Assembly: GCF_003606285.1 (NCBI RefSeq)
Contig: NZ_CP028884.1
Coordinates: 744,001 to 808,000, forward strand
Direction of reading: 5' to 3'
DNA from: Borrelia turcica IST7
GTDB lineage: Bacteria > Spirochaetota > Spirochaetia > Borreliales > Borreliaceae
DNA: 64,000 bases
Below the pieces are notes generated by a model. The model did not search any database. It had not been told where the DNA came from and worked only from the letters and a program-made list of their open reading frames with translations. The position numbers were made by a program, and so were the translations under genes. How positions within the stretch are numbered: position 1 is the stretch's first letter; every line of letters begins with the position of its first letter. Shown one piece after another: positions 46,450-52,399 of this stretch.

Positions 46450-47793
46450 ATGTATAGGATTAAGGATAAGGAATTAGATTTTAGAATAGAAAGTTTAGGA
46501 GAATGTAAACAAAATAATCCTTTAATTAATTTTTATGCTAGTGAAAGTCATGTTCATTTTGCTAATGAGATTAATAAAATTAGATTTAGTGTTTATAAAA
46601 ATGAAGAAAGTTGTGATAAATATGAAGATATTCTTTTAGAGAAAGCTGGACCTAGAGATAAGATATATTTTATTCCAAAACATGTTAAGGCGGCTATTAC
46701 TACTTGTGGGGGGCTTTGTCCTGGATTTAATGATGTTATTCGTTCCATTGTGAGGACATTATGGAAAGTGTACGGAGTTCGTAATATTTATGGTGTTAAA
46801 TTTGGGTATCAAGGGCTTTTACCAGAGTCTAACTCGCCTTTTGTTCAACTTAATCCGGATATAGTGGATGATATTAATCAGTTTGGCGGTACAATACTTG
46901 GTTCCTCAAGGGGAGGAATTAAACCTGTTGAAATAGTTGATACTTTAGAGAGAATGAATATTAATATGATCTTTAATATTGGTGGAGATGGAACACAGAA
47001 GGGTTCTATTTTAATTGCTGAGGAGATAGCTAGGAGAAATTTAAAAATTGCTGTTGTGGGAATACCTAAGACAGTTGATAATGACTTTATGTTTGTTCAA
47101 AAATCATTTGGATTTGAAACAGCAGTAGAGCAGGCAGTTTCTGCTGTTGCTGGTGCACATTTTGAGGCAAATAGTGCTTATAATGGAATTGGTCTTGTTA
47201 AGGTTATGGGTAGGGATTCTGGGTTTATTGCTGCTTATACTGCTTTATCTTCGAATGATGTTAACTTTTGTTTAATACCAGAGTTAGATTTTGACATTGA
47301 AGGCCCTAATGGATTTCTTGCGCATCTTGAGAGGAGACTTTTGGAAAAAGAGAGTTTAGATGAAATACCTCATGCAGTAATATTAATAGCAGAAGGAGCG
47401 GGACAAAAATATTTTGATCCTAGTAGTCGCAGAAGAGATGATTCTGGTAATTTGCTTTATGAGGATATTGGGCTTTACCTTAAAGATAAGATTACAGAGT
47501 ATTTTAAGGTTAAAAATATTCCAATCACTCTTAAGTATATTGACCCTAGTTATATTATTAGAAGTTCACCAGCTAATGCTAGTGATTCTCTTTATTGTGC
47601 TCGCCTTGGCTCAAATGCTGTTCATGCTGCTATGGCGGGGAAAACAAAATTATTAGTTAGCTTGTGGAGTACAAAATTTGTGCATATCCCAATAGAAATG
47701 GCAGTAATTGACAGAAATAAAGTTAATATAAATGGTTCTTTTTGGAGAGATGTTCTTGCAAGTACTGGTCAGCCATTTAGTATGAAGAACTAA
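46450..47793 (+). CDS. pfkA: 6-phosphofructokinase, group III
   Basis: This enzyme phosphorylates fructose 6-phosphate in glycolysis, the sole energy route in Borrelia. The 447-residue protein has GGLCPGFNDVIR near residue 87, GGDGT at 178-182 and PKTVDND at 206-212, and the MGRDSGFIA segment near residue 255. The combination of glycine in GGDGT with lysine in PKTVDND is that of group III (plant and trypanosome-like) enzymes, which use ATP. PPi enzymes usually have GGDD. It is separated from its neighbours by terminators. By position it is BB0727. Confidence 0.9.
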   Translation: MYRIKDKELDFRIESLGECKQNNPLINFYASESHVHFANEINKIRFSVYKNEESCDKYEDILLEKAGPRDKIYFIPKHVKAAITTCGGLCPGFNDVIRSIVRTLWKVYGVRNIYGVKFGYQGLLPESNSPFVQLNPDIVDDINQFGGTILGSSRGGIKPVEIVDTLERMNINMIFNIGGDGTQKGSILIAEEIARRNLKIAVVGIPKTVDNDFMFVQKSFGFETAVEQAVSAVAGAHFEANSAYNGIGLVKVMGRDSGFIAAYTALSSNDVNFCLIPELDFDIEGPNGFLAHLERRLLEKESLDEIPHAVILIAEGAGQKYFDPSSRRRDDSGNLLYEDIGLYLKDKITEYFKVKNIPITLKYIDPSYIIRSSPANASDSLYCARLGSNAVHAAMAGKTKLLVSLWSTKFVHIPIEMAVIDRNKVNINGSFWRDVLASTGQPFSMKN

Positions 47794-48009: not shown

Positions 48010-49341
48010 TTACTTTGCTGCGTTACCCGCGACATTTAGAGCATCCCAAGTTTTTGAGAAAGGAGGTGAATATGCAAAATCTAGCATTCCAAGTTCCTTT
48101 GTTGTAATTTTTGAATAAATTGCAAGAGATAGTGCATGCATTCTTAAAGCGGCTCCGTTCTTTCCGATCGCTTGTGCTCCGATTATTTCTTCTGTTTCTT
48201 CATTGTAGATTAACTTAATGTATAGGTCTTCTTGTGTTGGGTAATAATTTGTGTGATTTTTATCTTTTATAAATACTGTTTTATATTTTATACCAAGCCT
48301 TAAAGCGGCTTCTTCCGTAAGACCAGTCCTTGCTGCTTCAAGAGACAAAACCTTAATGGATGCGGACCCTAGCGTTCCTTTAAAAGAAACGCGTTGTCCT
48401 GATAAATTTTCACCTATTATTTTGCCTATTTTGCTAGCTGTTGTTGCAAGAGGAATATAATCATTCTGCTTGCTTACAATATTGTATACTGTAGCACAAT
48501 CTCCTGCAGAGAAAACATTCGCTACACTAGTTTCGCCATATTCATTAATAACTATAGCACCGTTTTTAAAAGTCTCAAGTTGTCCTTCTAAAAATTCAGT
48601 AGCAGGACGTATTCCCGTAGAGAGAATTACAAGGTCTGCCTTATATTCACCTTTGTTTGTAACGATGCCTTCAACTTTTTCTTTTCCTACTAAACTTTTT
48701 ACAAATTCATTTGTATGGAGTAAAACGTTGTTCTTAATTAGTTCTTCTTCCATTATATTAGTAATTTCTTTGTCAAATGATTCAATAAGTATTCGCTTAT
48801 CTAGTTGAATAATTCTTACATTTTTCCCTCTATTTTTAGCGGCATCTACCATTTCAATTCCAATATATCCAGCTCCAATGATTGCTATGTCATTTATTTC
48901 TTTTTTCTTAAAGAGTTCTCTTATTTCTTTTCCGTCTTGCATGTTTCTTAGTGTATAAAAATTACTTAGTTGGATATTACTAATAGGAGGAATAATAGGG
49001 TTACCTCCTGTTGCAATCACTAATTTATCATAAGTATCATTAAATATTTCCCCAGTTTTTAGATTTTTAACTTTAAGAGTACTATTTTTGATGTCTACTT
49101 GAATAACTTCATGTCTGGTACATACAGATATTCCATTTTGCTCAAATTCATCAGGTGTTCTAGCTATCATTTTATTTGCATCATCAAAGAATCCGCCAAT
49201 AAAGTACGGTAGTCCACAAGCTCCGAAAGATGTAGTATCTGTTTTTTCATAAATAGTAATATTTAATTCTTTATTTATTCTTTTTGCTTTAGCAGCAGCA
49301 CTTGTACCCGCAGCAGTGCCTCCGATAATGATTATTTTCAT
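48010..49341 (-). CDS. cdr: CoA-disulfide reductase
   Basis: This NAD(P)H- and FAD-dependent enzyme reduces CoA disulfide. In B. burgdorferi the orthologue BB0728 is known to do this, CoA being the main small thiol of the cell. The 443-residue protein has the FAD-binding IIIGGTAAGTSAAAKA, the single active-site cysteine C42 in SFGACGLPYF, the NAD-binding GAGYIGIEMVDAA near residue 155, and FSAGDCAT near residue 280. The C-terminal YSPPFS tyrosine element of the family is present. It overlaps the symporter gene by 4 nt. Confidence 0.95.
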   Translation of the reverse strand: MKIIIIGGTAAGTSAAAKAKRINKELNITIYEKTDTTSFGACGLPYFIGGFFDDANKMIARTPDEFEQNGISVCTRHEVIQVDIKNSTLKVKNLKTGEIFNDTYDKLVIATGGNPIIPPISNIQLSNFYTLRNMQDGKEIRELFKKKEINDIAIIGAGYIGIEMVDAAKNRGKNVRIIQLDKRILIESFDKEITNIMEEELIKNNVLLHTNEFVKSLVGKEKVEGIVTNKGEYKADLVILSTGIRPATEFLEGQLETFKNGAIVINEYGETSVANVFSAGDCATVYNIVSKQNDYIPLATTASKIGKIIGENLSGQRVSFKGTLGSASIKVLSLEAARTGLTEEAALRLGIKYKTVFIKDKNHTNYYPTQEDLYIKLIYNEETEEIIGAQAIGKNGAALRMHALSLAIYSKITTKELGMLDFAYSPPFSKTWDALNVAGNAAK

Positions 49342-50738
49342 TCAAATTCCTTATTTTCTATTTTATTTTTGTTGTTGTAAATGTTGATGTCTAATTGATT
49401 TAGATTTTTTGCCGTAATTACTCCTGCAACCATTGAGTCACTTACATTAGCAGATGTTCGCCCCATATCAATTAGAGGTTCAATAGATATTAAAAGTCCA
49501 ACTAGTTCTACAGGTAGATTCATTGAAGAGAGAACCATTAAAGATGCCATTGTTGCTCCTCCTCCGACTCCAGCTACTCCAAATGAGGTTATTATTATTA
49601 TTCCTATGAGTTGAAGTATAAATGAGGGATCTGTTGGATTTATCCCTTGAGTAGGGGCAATCATTATTGCTAACATAGCAGGATGGAGTGCCGCACAACC
49701 ATTCTGTCCGATTGAAGCTCCAAATGAACTAGAAAGATTAGCAATACCTTCGCTAACTCCTAATTGTTCAGTTTGTACTTCTACATTAACAGGTATTGTT
49801 GCTGAGCTAGAACGAGATATGAATGCAAATGTTAAAACAGGAAATGCTTTTTTAATGAAAGTAATTGGATTTAGTCTATTAAGGGCAATTAATGTCATGT
49901 GCATTAAAATGGTAATACCAATAGCAACATAAGAAGCAAGTACAAATTTTCCAAGGTTCATTATGCTTGAAATATCGCTTGTTGCCGATATTTTTGTAAT
50001 CATTGCTAATATGGCGTAGGGTGTTAACTTTAAAATTAAAACTAGTATTCCTGAAGTTAAATCTTGTGCTGTTGCCATTATTTGTTTGAAAAATTCTATT
50101 GATTCTGGTTTTTTCCTTGAAACTCTAAGAGCAGCTATGCCTACTAAAGCAGCAAATATTACTACTCCAATTGTTGAGCTTGGTCTCATTCCTGCCATGT
50201 CTTCAAATATGTTTTCAGGAATAAGTTCTGATAGTCTTTGTGTAATTGAAGTATGGTTTAGTCGATCAAGACCTTGGTTTAAATTTTTTCCATATGCAAT
50301 TTCATCTTCACCAAATTGAAGTGATTCTGCTGTTAAATTAAAGAATAAGGATGTGTAAATTCCAATTATGGATGCAATTCCTGCTGTAAATACAAGTACT
50401 AATATTACAGATAAACTCATTTTCCAAACATCTTGGGTGTTTGTTAATTTTATTATTGCAGATATTATTGAGACAATTATGAGAGGTATTACAATCATTT
50501 TAAGAAGTCTTACATAACCAGTTCCTAAAATATTAATCCACTTAACGCTTTCTTTTATTATCATAGGCTCTGATTCATAAAAATATTGCATAGACATACC
50601 AAAAATTAATCCTAGACCTAGCGCTATAAATATTCTTTTTGTAAATGAGATATGTTTTTTATGAAAAAAATAGAGTAGTCCTAGTAGACCAAACATAATC
50701 ACTATGTTTGATAATGTGTATATTATTCTTATATTCAT
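49338..50738 (-). CDS. tcyP: Sodium:dicarboxylate-type symporter, L-cystine (TcyP-like) subgroup
   Basis: This 466-residue membrane protein of the DAACS (GltP/DctA) family has about eight helices plus re-entrant loops. The serine-rich loop reads SRSSSATIPVN. The second hairpin reads SFGASIGQNGCAAL, where glutamate carriers have NMDGT. The N-terminus KKHISFTKRIFIALGLG and the GQNGC element match what I recall of TcyP/YdjN cystine symporters, so cystine is a better substrate guess than glutamate (the older gltP name, BB0729). It lies between pgi and cdr and overlaps cdr by 4 nt. Confidence 0.82.
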   Translation of the reverse strand: MNIRIIYTLSNIVIMFGLLGLLYFFHKKHISFTKRIFIALGLGLIFGMSMQYFYESEPMIIKESVKWINILGTGYVRLLKMIVIPLIIVSIISAIIKLTNTQDVWKMSLSVILVLVFTAGIASIIGIYTSLFFNLTAESLQFGEDEIAYGKNLNQGLDRLNHTSITQRLSELIPENIFEDMAGMRPSSTIGVVIFAALVGIAALRVSRKKPESIEFFKQIMATAQDLTSGILVLILKLTPYAILAMITKISATSDISSIMNLGKFVLASYVAIGITILMHMTLIALNRLNPITFIKKAFPVLTFAFISRSSSATIPVNVEVQTEQLGVSEGIANLSSSFGASIGQNGCAALHPAMLAIMIAPTQGINPTDPSFILQLIGIIIITSFGVAGVGGGATMASLMVLSSMNLPVELVGLLISIEPLIDMGRTSANVSDSMVAGVITAKNLNQLDINIYNNKNKIENKEFE

Positions 50739-50824
50739 TTTTGCCTCTTATATCTAAACTTAAATAATTGTTTAATAATAATGATATTATAATATTTTTT
50801 TAAAATCTTTCTAAATTTTTATCA

Positions 50825-52399
50825 TTACAGTAAGTTCTCGTAAGATGTTATTATTTCGTTTTTGATATCATTTTTATTTAGGATTTGAGTTGCAATTATC
50901 TTCCCAAGTTGAACTCCTTCTTGGTCAAATGAATTTATGTTAAGTAAAAAGCCTTCAAACATTACTTTGTTTTCATAGTGAGCTAGTAGTGCACCCACTA
51001 CATAAGCAGTAAGTTCTTTTGAATATATTAATGATGAAGGTCTCCCTCCTTCAAAGTTTTTATTTCTGTTTATGTCTTCTTTACCTTGAGAGAATGCAAT
51101 GATTTGAGCTATTAAATTTGCTTTTAACTTGTCATTGTTTGACGTTCCCTCTACAATTACATCTTTCTTTAGTTGAGATTCACTAAACCCAATTAAATCC
51201 ATTGGTACAATTTCTGTTCCTTGGTGAAGCATTTGGAAAAATGAATGTTGCACATCTGTGCCAATTCCTCCCCAAATGATTCTGACTGTTTTATAATCTA
51301 TTATTTCTCCAAATCGGTTTACGCTTTTTCCATTGCTTTCCATTTCAAGTTGTTGTAAGTGAAGATAAAAGTTTTCCATTGCTTTTGAGTATGCAACAAT
51401 ACAATTGCTACTATAATTAAGTATATTACTTTCGTATATGCTAATTAGAGCTGCCAGAAGAGGCGCATTTTCTCTTACGTTTTTGTTTAATGCTCTCTTA
51501 TCAACTTCATGAGCTCCTTGCAATATTTCTTTTGTAACATGTTCTGTAAAGCAAAGAGTAATAAGAGTAATTCCAACGGCGGATGTTGGTGAAAATCTTC
51601 CACCAATTGAATCGTGCATAAAGAAGTATTCAAGATATCCCTTTTCAAGTGCTAGCATACTTCCCTTTGAGGTAATGATTATAATTTGTTTTTGGTATTC
51701 TGTAATGCCATTATCTTCTAATTTTTTAATTAAAAATTGCATATTAGAGGCAGTTTCTAGTGTTGTTCCGCTTTTTGATACTATAATAAATAGAGTCTCA
51801 TTAAGGTCTATTTCGCTTAAAACTTCTTCAGATTCGTCTGGATCAACATTTGAAATGAAATAAGCTTTCATTAGATGTAAGTCTTTCTGCTTAGCATAAT
51901 TTTTAATTGCTGTATATAGTGCTTTTGGACCAAGACTTGAACCACCAATACCAATCTGTACCACATTTTTAAATGTCTTGCCTTTTATGCTTTTAATTGA
52001 CCCATTGTGAACTTGTTTTGCAAATTCGAAAATTCTTTTAAGCTCTCTGTTAAAAAATTCTCGCATATTTTCATTATTCTCTGTTACTTCTGTACCCAGC
52101 TGGCCTCTTGTTAAATGGTGTAAAACTTTTCTGTTTTCACTGATGTTAATATTATTCCCATCAATTATTTCTTTATATTTTTCTATTAAGTTTGCTTCAT
52201 CACTTAAATTTTGAAATATTTTTAGATGAGCCTCATTAATTTGTTTTGTAGCATAGTTGTAATGTACATTATTACCGTCTATTTTAATATCGTAGTTTTT
52301 TATTCTATCTGAACTTAAAGTTTGACTTAGTACTTCGGGGTTGATTTTTGTTAGCGCTTGAAAATTTTTAAGTTTATTAAGATTTTGGTAATTGGGCAT
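50825..52399 (-). CDS. pgi: Glucose-6-phosphate isomerase
   Basis: This enzyme interconverts glucose 6-phosphate and fructose 6-phosphate. The 524-residue protein has the family segments VQIGIGGSSLGPKALY near residue 147, FIIVSKSGTTLETASNM near residue 204, and GGRFSPTSAVG near residue 268. It also contains the catalytic glutamate and histidine regions (WGGIGTDVQHSFFQMLHQGT). It is preceded by the ParB-like gene (37 nt gap) and followed by the symporter gene (86 nt gap). Confidence 0.96.
   Translation of the reverse strand: MPNYQNLNKLKNFQALTKINPEVLSQTLSSDRIKNYDIKIDGNNVHYNYATKQINEAHLKIFQNLSDEANLIEKYKEIIDGNNINISENRKVLHHLTRGQLGTEVTENNENMREFFNRELKRIFEFAKQVHNGSIKSIKGKTFKNVVQIGIGGSSLGPKALYTAIKNYAKQKDLHLMKAYFISNVDPDESEEVLSEIDLNETLFIIVSKSGTTLETASNMQFLIKKLEDNGITEYQKQIIIITSKGSMLALEKGYLEYFFMHDSIGGRFSPTSAVGITLITLCFTEHVTKEILQGAHEVDKRALNKNVRENAPLLAALISIYESNILNYSSNCIVAYSKAMENFYLHLQQLEMESNGKSVNRFGEIIDYKTVRIIWGGIGTDVQHSFFQMLHQGTEIVPMDLIGFSESQLKKDVIVEGTSNNDKLKANLIAQIIAFSQGKEDINRNKNFEGGRPSSLIYSKELTAYVVGALLAHYENKVMFEGFLLNINSFDQEGVQLGKIIATQILNKNDIKNEIITSYENLL

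Follow-up and report, generated by a model that had tools for sequence, protein, structure and literature searches.

A gene pair of Borrelia turcica that probably joins cystine import to CoA-dependent reduction, and its recurrence in other phyla

A symporter gene and cdr, the gene for a predicted CoA-disulfide reductase (CoADR), are adjacent in Borrelia turcica and probably form a two-gene unit for the acquisition of cystine, which would be imported and then reduced with NADH, most likely via CoA. The pair lies in the window, which is the whole stretch of 64,000 nucleotides that was analyzed. The features of the locus, with positions counted in the window, are as follows:

46450-47793, + strand: phosphofructokinase gene, named from its open reading frame; downstream of cdr and convergent with it
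48010-49341, - strand: cdr, predicted CoA-disulfide reductase of 443 amino acids, orthologue of BB0728 (NF007123 match)
49338-49341, - strand: overlap of the symporter gene and cdr, ATGA, made up of the stop TGA and the start ATG (from the sequence)
49338-50738, - strand: DAACS-family symporter of 466 amino acids, probably of the TcyP/YdjN cystine type, orthologue of BB0729 (PF00375, tree and motif)
50739-50824, - strand: gap of 86 nt between pgi and the symporter gene with promoter-like sequences (consensus matches only)
50825-52399, - strand: pgi, named from its open reading frame; upstream of the symporter gene

The pair is thus placed between two glycolytic genes. A sequence-only reading of this DNA had given the coordinates, the 4-nt overlap and a GQNGC motif in the symporter, and all were exact when the sequence was read again. 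The cdr ATG is preceded by a ribosome-binding sequence, AAGGA, just 5′ of it and inside the 3′ end of the symporter gene. A promoter and terminator scan of the 50739-50824 region gave promoter-like sites that were not clearly more numerous than in shuffled sequences.

All 36 Borreliaceae genomes, covering both genera, have the symporter gene and cdr side by side on the same strand. Among the 30 Borreliaceae loci that were read, the genes overlapped by 4 nt in four and abutted in three; in the remainder they were 8-64 nt apart, often with a ribosome-binding sequence. The overlap was therefore ruled out as a conserved coupling signal. It is a detail of the species, and the conserved feature is adjacency on a shared strand. 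The symporter is 75-91% identical to those of its own genus and 68-72% identical to those of the other Borreliaceae genus (18 genomes), and the CoADR is 72-74% identical to those of the other genus. These identities suggest that the window belongs to the relapsing-fever genus and not to that of B. burgdorferi.

The pair has a history in Borrelia burgdorferi. As related in PMC12830385, Eggers et al. proposed in 2011 that BB0729 is TcyP and found its gene co-transcribed with bb0728/cdr, and this co-transcription was taken to support the assignment because cystine is needed to make CoA. The sequence-only reading knew of no description of such a coupling; for the pairing this was wrong, going by the same account, and its proviso that the two genes might be transcribed separately is answered for B. 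burgdorferi by the co-transcription reported there. Explicit cystine/CoA exchange chemistry was not found in our literature search. Elsewhere, bb0729 is listed as tcyP (PMC5736914), and both bb0729 and cdr are reported to be transcribed by RpoS and the housekeeping sigma factor (PMC6719511, PMC3280991). Infectivity is intermediate in a mutant with a transposon in bb0729 (PMC4033020). B. burgdorferi lacks amino-acid synthesis (PMC5736914), and the absence of cysteine-synthesis genes is taken from the same paper.

Recurrence of the pair was surveyed by scanning genomes with the symporter alignment and then reading the gene neighbors. A cystine-type symporter adjoining a curated-level CoADR was found in Spirochaetota, Fusobacteriota, Pseudomonadota and Bacillota, with the two genes in either order. 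Paired genes are present in f44 spirochaetes, Melissococcus, Orbus, Gilliamella, an Oxalobacteraceae MAG, Vibrio, Enterovibrio, Photobacterium, Endozoicomonas, Propionigenium, Paenibacillus radicibacter and several Clostridia; they are divergent in C. difficile and convergent in two Brachyspira genomes. All 10 of the 10 neighboring reductases matched NF007123 best, nine of them above its cut-off. Vibrionaceae and Fusobacteriota provided two less biased samples. The 151 Vibrionaceae genomes contain 54 CoADR genes over the cut-off, and at least 51 of these adjoin a cystine-type symporter (47 by table and four by reading the DNA, with three genes outside the reading). One of those four (L173:2615-4023, genome G712) has a symporter frame split into two overlapping open reading frames beside an intact CoADR gene, and the split symporter is either a decayed or a mis-sequenced copy. 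The 98 Fusobacteriota genomes hold 40 over-cut-off CoADR genes, 20 of which are adjacent to a symporter gene, 17 in the order cdr-symporter and three in the order symporter-cdr. Such closeness would be expected by chance for about one gene in a thousand, as estimated from genome size, and genomes within one family are not independent.

The symporter tree shows at least 16-17 changes of the paired state; the count of 17 is perhaps one too high because a GltP-like Photobacterium paralogue beside cdr (L137:7172) was automatically labeled as a pair. Most Brachyspira CoADR genes and half of the Fusobacteriota ones are unpaired. A sample of 226 Clostridia genomes gave no independent support, since an over-cut-off CoADR was present in six of them and only the chosen center was adjacent to a symporter gene. 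The two Brachyspira loci with convergent neighbors (L060 and L061) stand beside most other genomes of the genus in which the genes are apart, as if the pair were forming or breaking up.

Two groups of symporters occur in the pairs. Clade A carries GQNGC and includes YdjN and the Borrelia proteins, and its sister, clade B, mostly carries G[ML]NGC, with the variant GMQGC in Niameybacter, Veillonella and Fusobacterium. Clade B (L055, L077, L080, L178, L157 and others) was seen in spirochaetes, Campylobacterota, Orbaceae, Clostridia, Fusobacteriota and Enterococcaceae, often beside CoADR, and a plasmid copy from this clade is annotated by superfamily name only. An Enterococcus faecium plasmid of 4,093 bases, possibly an assembly artefact, bears an L-cystine transporter gene (NZ_CP066613.1:1259-2617), unusual cargo for a plasmid of this size. 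A search of mostly open-access literature for a general pairing of the symporter with CoADR returned Borrelia papers only. The Borrelia pair is known, and the cross-phylum module is probably undescribed comparative evidence.

Some of the paired loci also contain genes of cysteine breakdown. Paenibacillus radicibacter has five consecutive genes in one direction (L114:1883-7129), for a YheO-type regulator, a CyuA-like protein, a GQNGC symporter, CoADR and RidA, which read like a complete cystine-breakdown operon. A Fusobacterium-type locus (L178) contains a sigma-54 regulator, a CyuA-like protein, CoADR and a clade-B symporter, and many Vibrio loci contain a YheO-type regulator, RidA, the symporter and CoADR. 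CoADR is also found beside a CyuA-like desulfidase, with the symporter not adjacent, in Brevibacillus (L179) and at two Fusobacteriota loci (L160 and L167); eight further unpaired Fusobacteriota loci that were read had no CyuA-like neighbor of CoADR. The CyuA-like proteins are 33-39% identical over their length to E. coli CyuA, an L-cysteine desulfidase, and have four invariant Cys. The natural reading of these gene orders is that cystine would be imported and converted to cysteine, which would be desulfidated to 2-aminoacrylate for removal by RidA, with CoADR as the putative reduction step. The Borrelia locus has the import and reduction genes only. Since the pairing recurs beside cysteine-breakdown genes in unrelated bacteria, these loci provide independent support for a shared role in cystine import and reduction, as the sequence-only reading had suggested for this pair.

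In the proposed mechanism, the symporter would carry extracellular cystine into the cytoplasm, as its homology suggests. Cystine would then most likely exchange with the abundant CoA thiol, so that cystine and 2 CoA would give 2 cysteine and CoA disulfide, and CoADR would use NADH to regenerate CoASH from the CoA disulfide or mixed disulfide. The cysteine would become available for making proteins and CoA in a bacterium that synthesizes neither cysteine nor glutathione. As a side effect, NADH would be re-oxidized to NAD+, in line with published work in which CoADR supplies NAD+ for glycolysis (PMC3280991). Adjacency alone is no proof that CoADR acts on imported cystine. B. burgdorferi has thioredoxin genes (PMC3147059), and its thioredoxin and thioredoxin reductase could reduce cystine instead.

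The presence of these genes suits another account, in which thioredoxin reduces cystine, the pair supplies cysteine mainly for CoA synthesis, CoADR keeps CoA reduced under oxidative stress and the link between the two genes is regulatory. Eggers et al., as related in PMC12830385, reasoned in a closely similar way, and cdr is partly dependent on BosR and RpoS and needed for infection (PMC6454574, PMC3280991). We consider this account unlikely, as it leaves unexplained why unrelated bacteria have the same pair next to genes for cysteine desulfidase and RidA. Those loci share a need to turn imported cystine into cysteine.

The reductase itself was compared with curated models. It scored 740 bits against the NF007123 CoA-disulfide reductase model (cut-off 458) and 575 bits against TIGR03385, just below the cut-off of 578.8. 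The model of H2O-forming NADH oxidase gave 352 bits against a cut-off of 600. A second CoADR model, NF010037, gave 293 bits (cut-off 394), so the window reductase does not belong to the NF010037 subgroup. It has a single active-site cysteine, Cys42, in SFGACGLPY, together with Tyr366 and Tyr424, and it has Ala10, thus lacking the His10 of Nox/Npr; the catalytic residues are kept across the 20 reductases compared. The best PDB match is 3cgb, a CoADR-type enzyme. By family, then, the window reductase is predicted to be a CoA-disulfide reductase.

A second account keeps the link to cystine and changes the substrate: NF007123-type reductases would act directly on cystine or on a CoA-cysteine mixed disulfide, and free CoA disulfide would not be the main substrate. 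In favor of this are the strong link of these reductases to cystine importers, at some loci also to cysteine-catabolic genes, and catalytic Cys and Tyr residues that would suit a CoA-bound mixed disulfide. The signatures in the reductase sequence are, however, all those of CoADR, and the enzymes of B. burgdorferi and S. aureus have been reported to be specific for CoA disulfide, which counts against direct reduction. We regard direct reduction as slightly less likely again than a regulatory link. The B. burgdorferi orthologue carries out NADH-dependent CoA-disulfide reduction (Boylan 2006, as cited in PMC5333916); in that species CoA is regarded as the main small thiol, glutathione being undetected (PMC5333916). 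Both growth in feeding nymphs and needle infection require cdr (PMC3280991).

The symporter was assigned by domain, tree and motif. It matched PF00375 (SDF) with 329 bits over residues 33-444, a full-length domain. The NCBIfam profile search matched no cystine symporter model and only GltP, DctA and SstT, all far under their cut-offs: the GltP equivalog gave 118 bits against a cut-off of 638, and the DctA and SstT models were lower still. In a tree built with IQ-TREE and anchored with proteins from E. coli K-12, the symporter was in one clade with YdjN/TcyP (support 100/99), and GltP and DctA were outside this clade (support 96/100). The tree of BB0729 in PMC12830385 had the same outcome. The motifs GQNGC (residues 344-348) and EPLIDMGRT (with DMGRT at residues 424-428) are common to the window symporter, E. 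coli YdjN/TcyP and annotated L-cystine transporters in the alignment. At the hairpin position of GQNGC, E. coli GltP has NLDGS and the GltP-like Photobacterium paralogue has NMDGT. The symporter is 46-50% identical to annotated L-cystine transporters. It is therefore probably of the TcyP/YdjN cystine type, judging from its sequence relationships. Our literature search found no demonstration of cystine transport by BB0729.

It is very improbable that the symporter is a glutamate/aspartate carrier, for example an osmolyte importer, that stands before cdr by coincidence: the older annotation is gltP, and PMC4985143 treats bb0729 as gltP, with induction by osmolarity and in ticks as they feed, but this identity was rejected on the tree, on the motif, in which GQNGC replaces an NMDGT-type hairpin, and on the assignment by experiment of Asp/Glu carriage in B. 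burgdorferi to a separate, essential protein, BB0401 (PMC12830385). The same three lines of evidence bear out the cystine-type symporter of the sequence-only reading.

A second SDF protein of the same genome (L068, G000:C1:426484-427617) was taken as the BB0401-type Asp/Glu carrier. It is extremely divergent, without the usual hairpin motif, and its branch of 8-10 changes per column is too long to place. Residues 346 and 435 of the window symporter presumably correspond to the sodium-site carboxylates D312 and D405 of GltPh, and the alignment has Asn and Ser at these positions in the symporter and in the cystine group. Sodium coupling of the symporter should therefore not be assumed, and the coupling ion of BB0729 may not be sodium, though this is often stated.

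A wider proposal, which we put forward tentatively, is that the NF007123 group could be dedicated to the reduction step of a module for cystine use that is widespread and has been repeatedly gained and lost, made up of a regulator, a cystine symporter, CoADR, cysteine desulfidase and RidA. Borrelia would have kept only import and reduction, and external cystine would both provide cysteine and accept electrons, so that NAD+ becomes available again for glycolysis. If the import-and-reduction unit is real, it would define what CoADR does in the physiology of B. burgdorferi, which needs this redox enzyme in mammalian infection; so far the enzyme has been seen chiefly in terms of oxidative stress or NAD+ recycling. 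It would also explain the use of cystine by an organism without glutathione. From the recurrent pairing one would expect CoA-based or direct reduction of cystine in fusobacteria, vibrios, clostridia and others, a step for which glutathione or thioredoxin is normally held responsible. The paired species provide tractable laboratory organisms for testing CoADR-linked cystine reduction.

The closest known system is bb0729-bb0728 (tcyP-cdr) of B. burgdorferi, which has the same genes in the same order with co-transcription reported; it differs in species and in the rationale reported for it, which is cystine as a precursor of CoA and not an explicit thiol-disulfide exchange (as related in PMC12830385). 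E. coli YdjN/TcyP, a proven cystine importer with a Km for cystine of ~1.1 μM (PMC4383340), resembles the window symporter in 45% identity, both motifs and membership of one supported clade, but it stands alone, with no CoADR gene alongside in E. coli K-12. The reductase resembles the NF007123 type of CoADR (PRK09564; solved relatives 3cgb and 1yqz) in its score above the cut-off, its single catalytic Cys, its two Tyr residues and its lack of His10. E. coli cyuPA is comparable in that CyuA homologues adjoin the symporter-CoADR pair in Paenibacillus, Niameybacter and Fusobacteriota. In contrast, cyuPA has a cysteine importer and no disulfide reductase, and the Borrelia pair has no adjacent CyuA.
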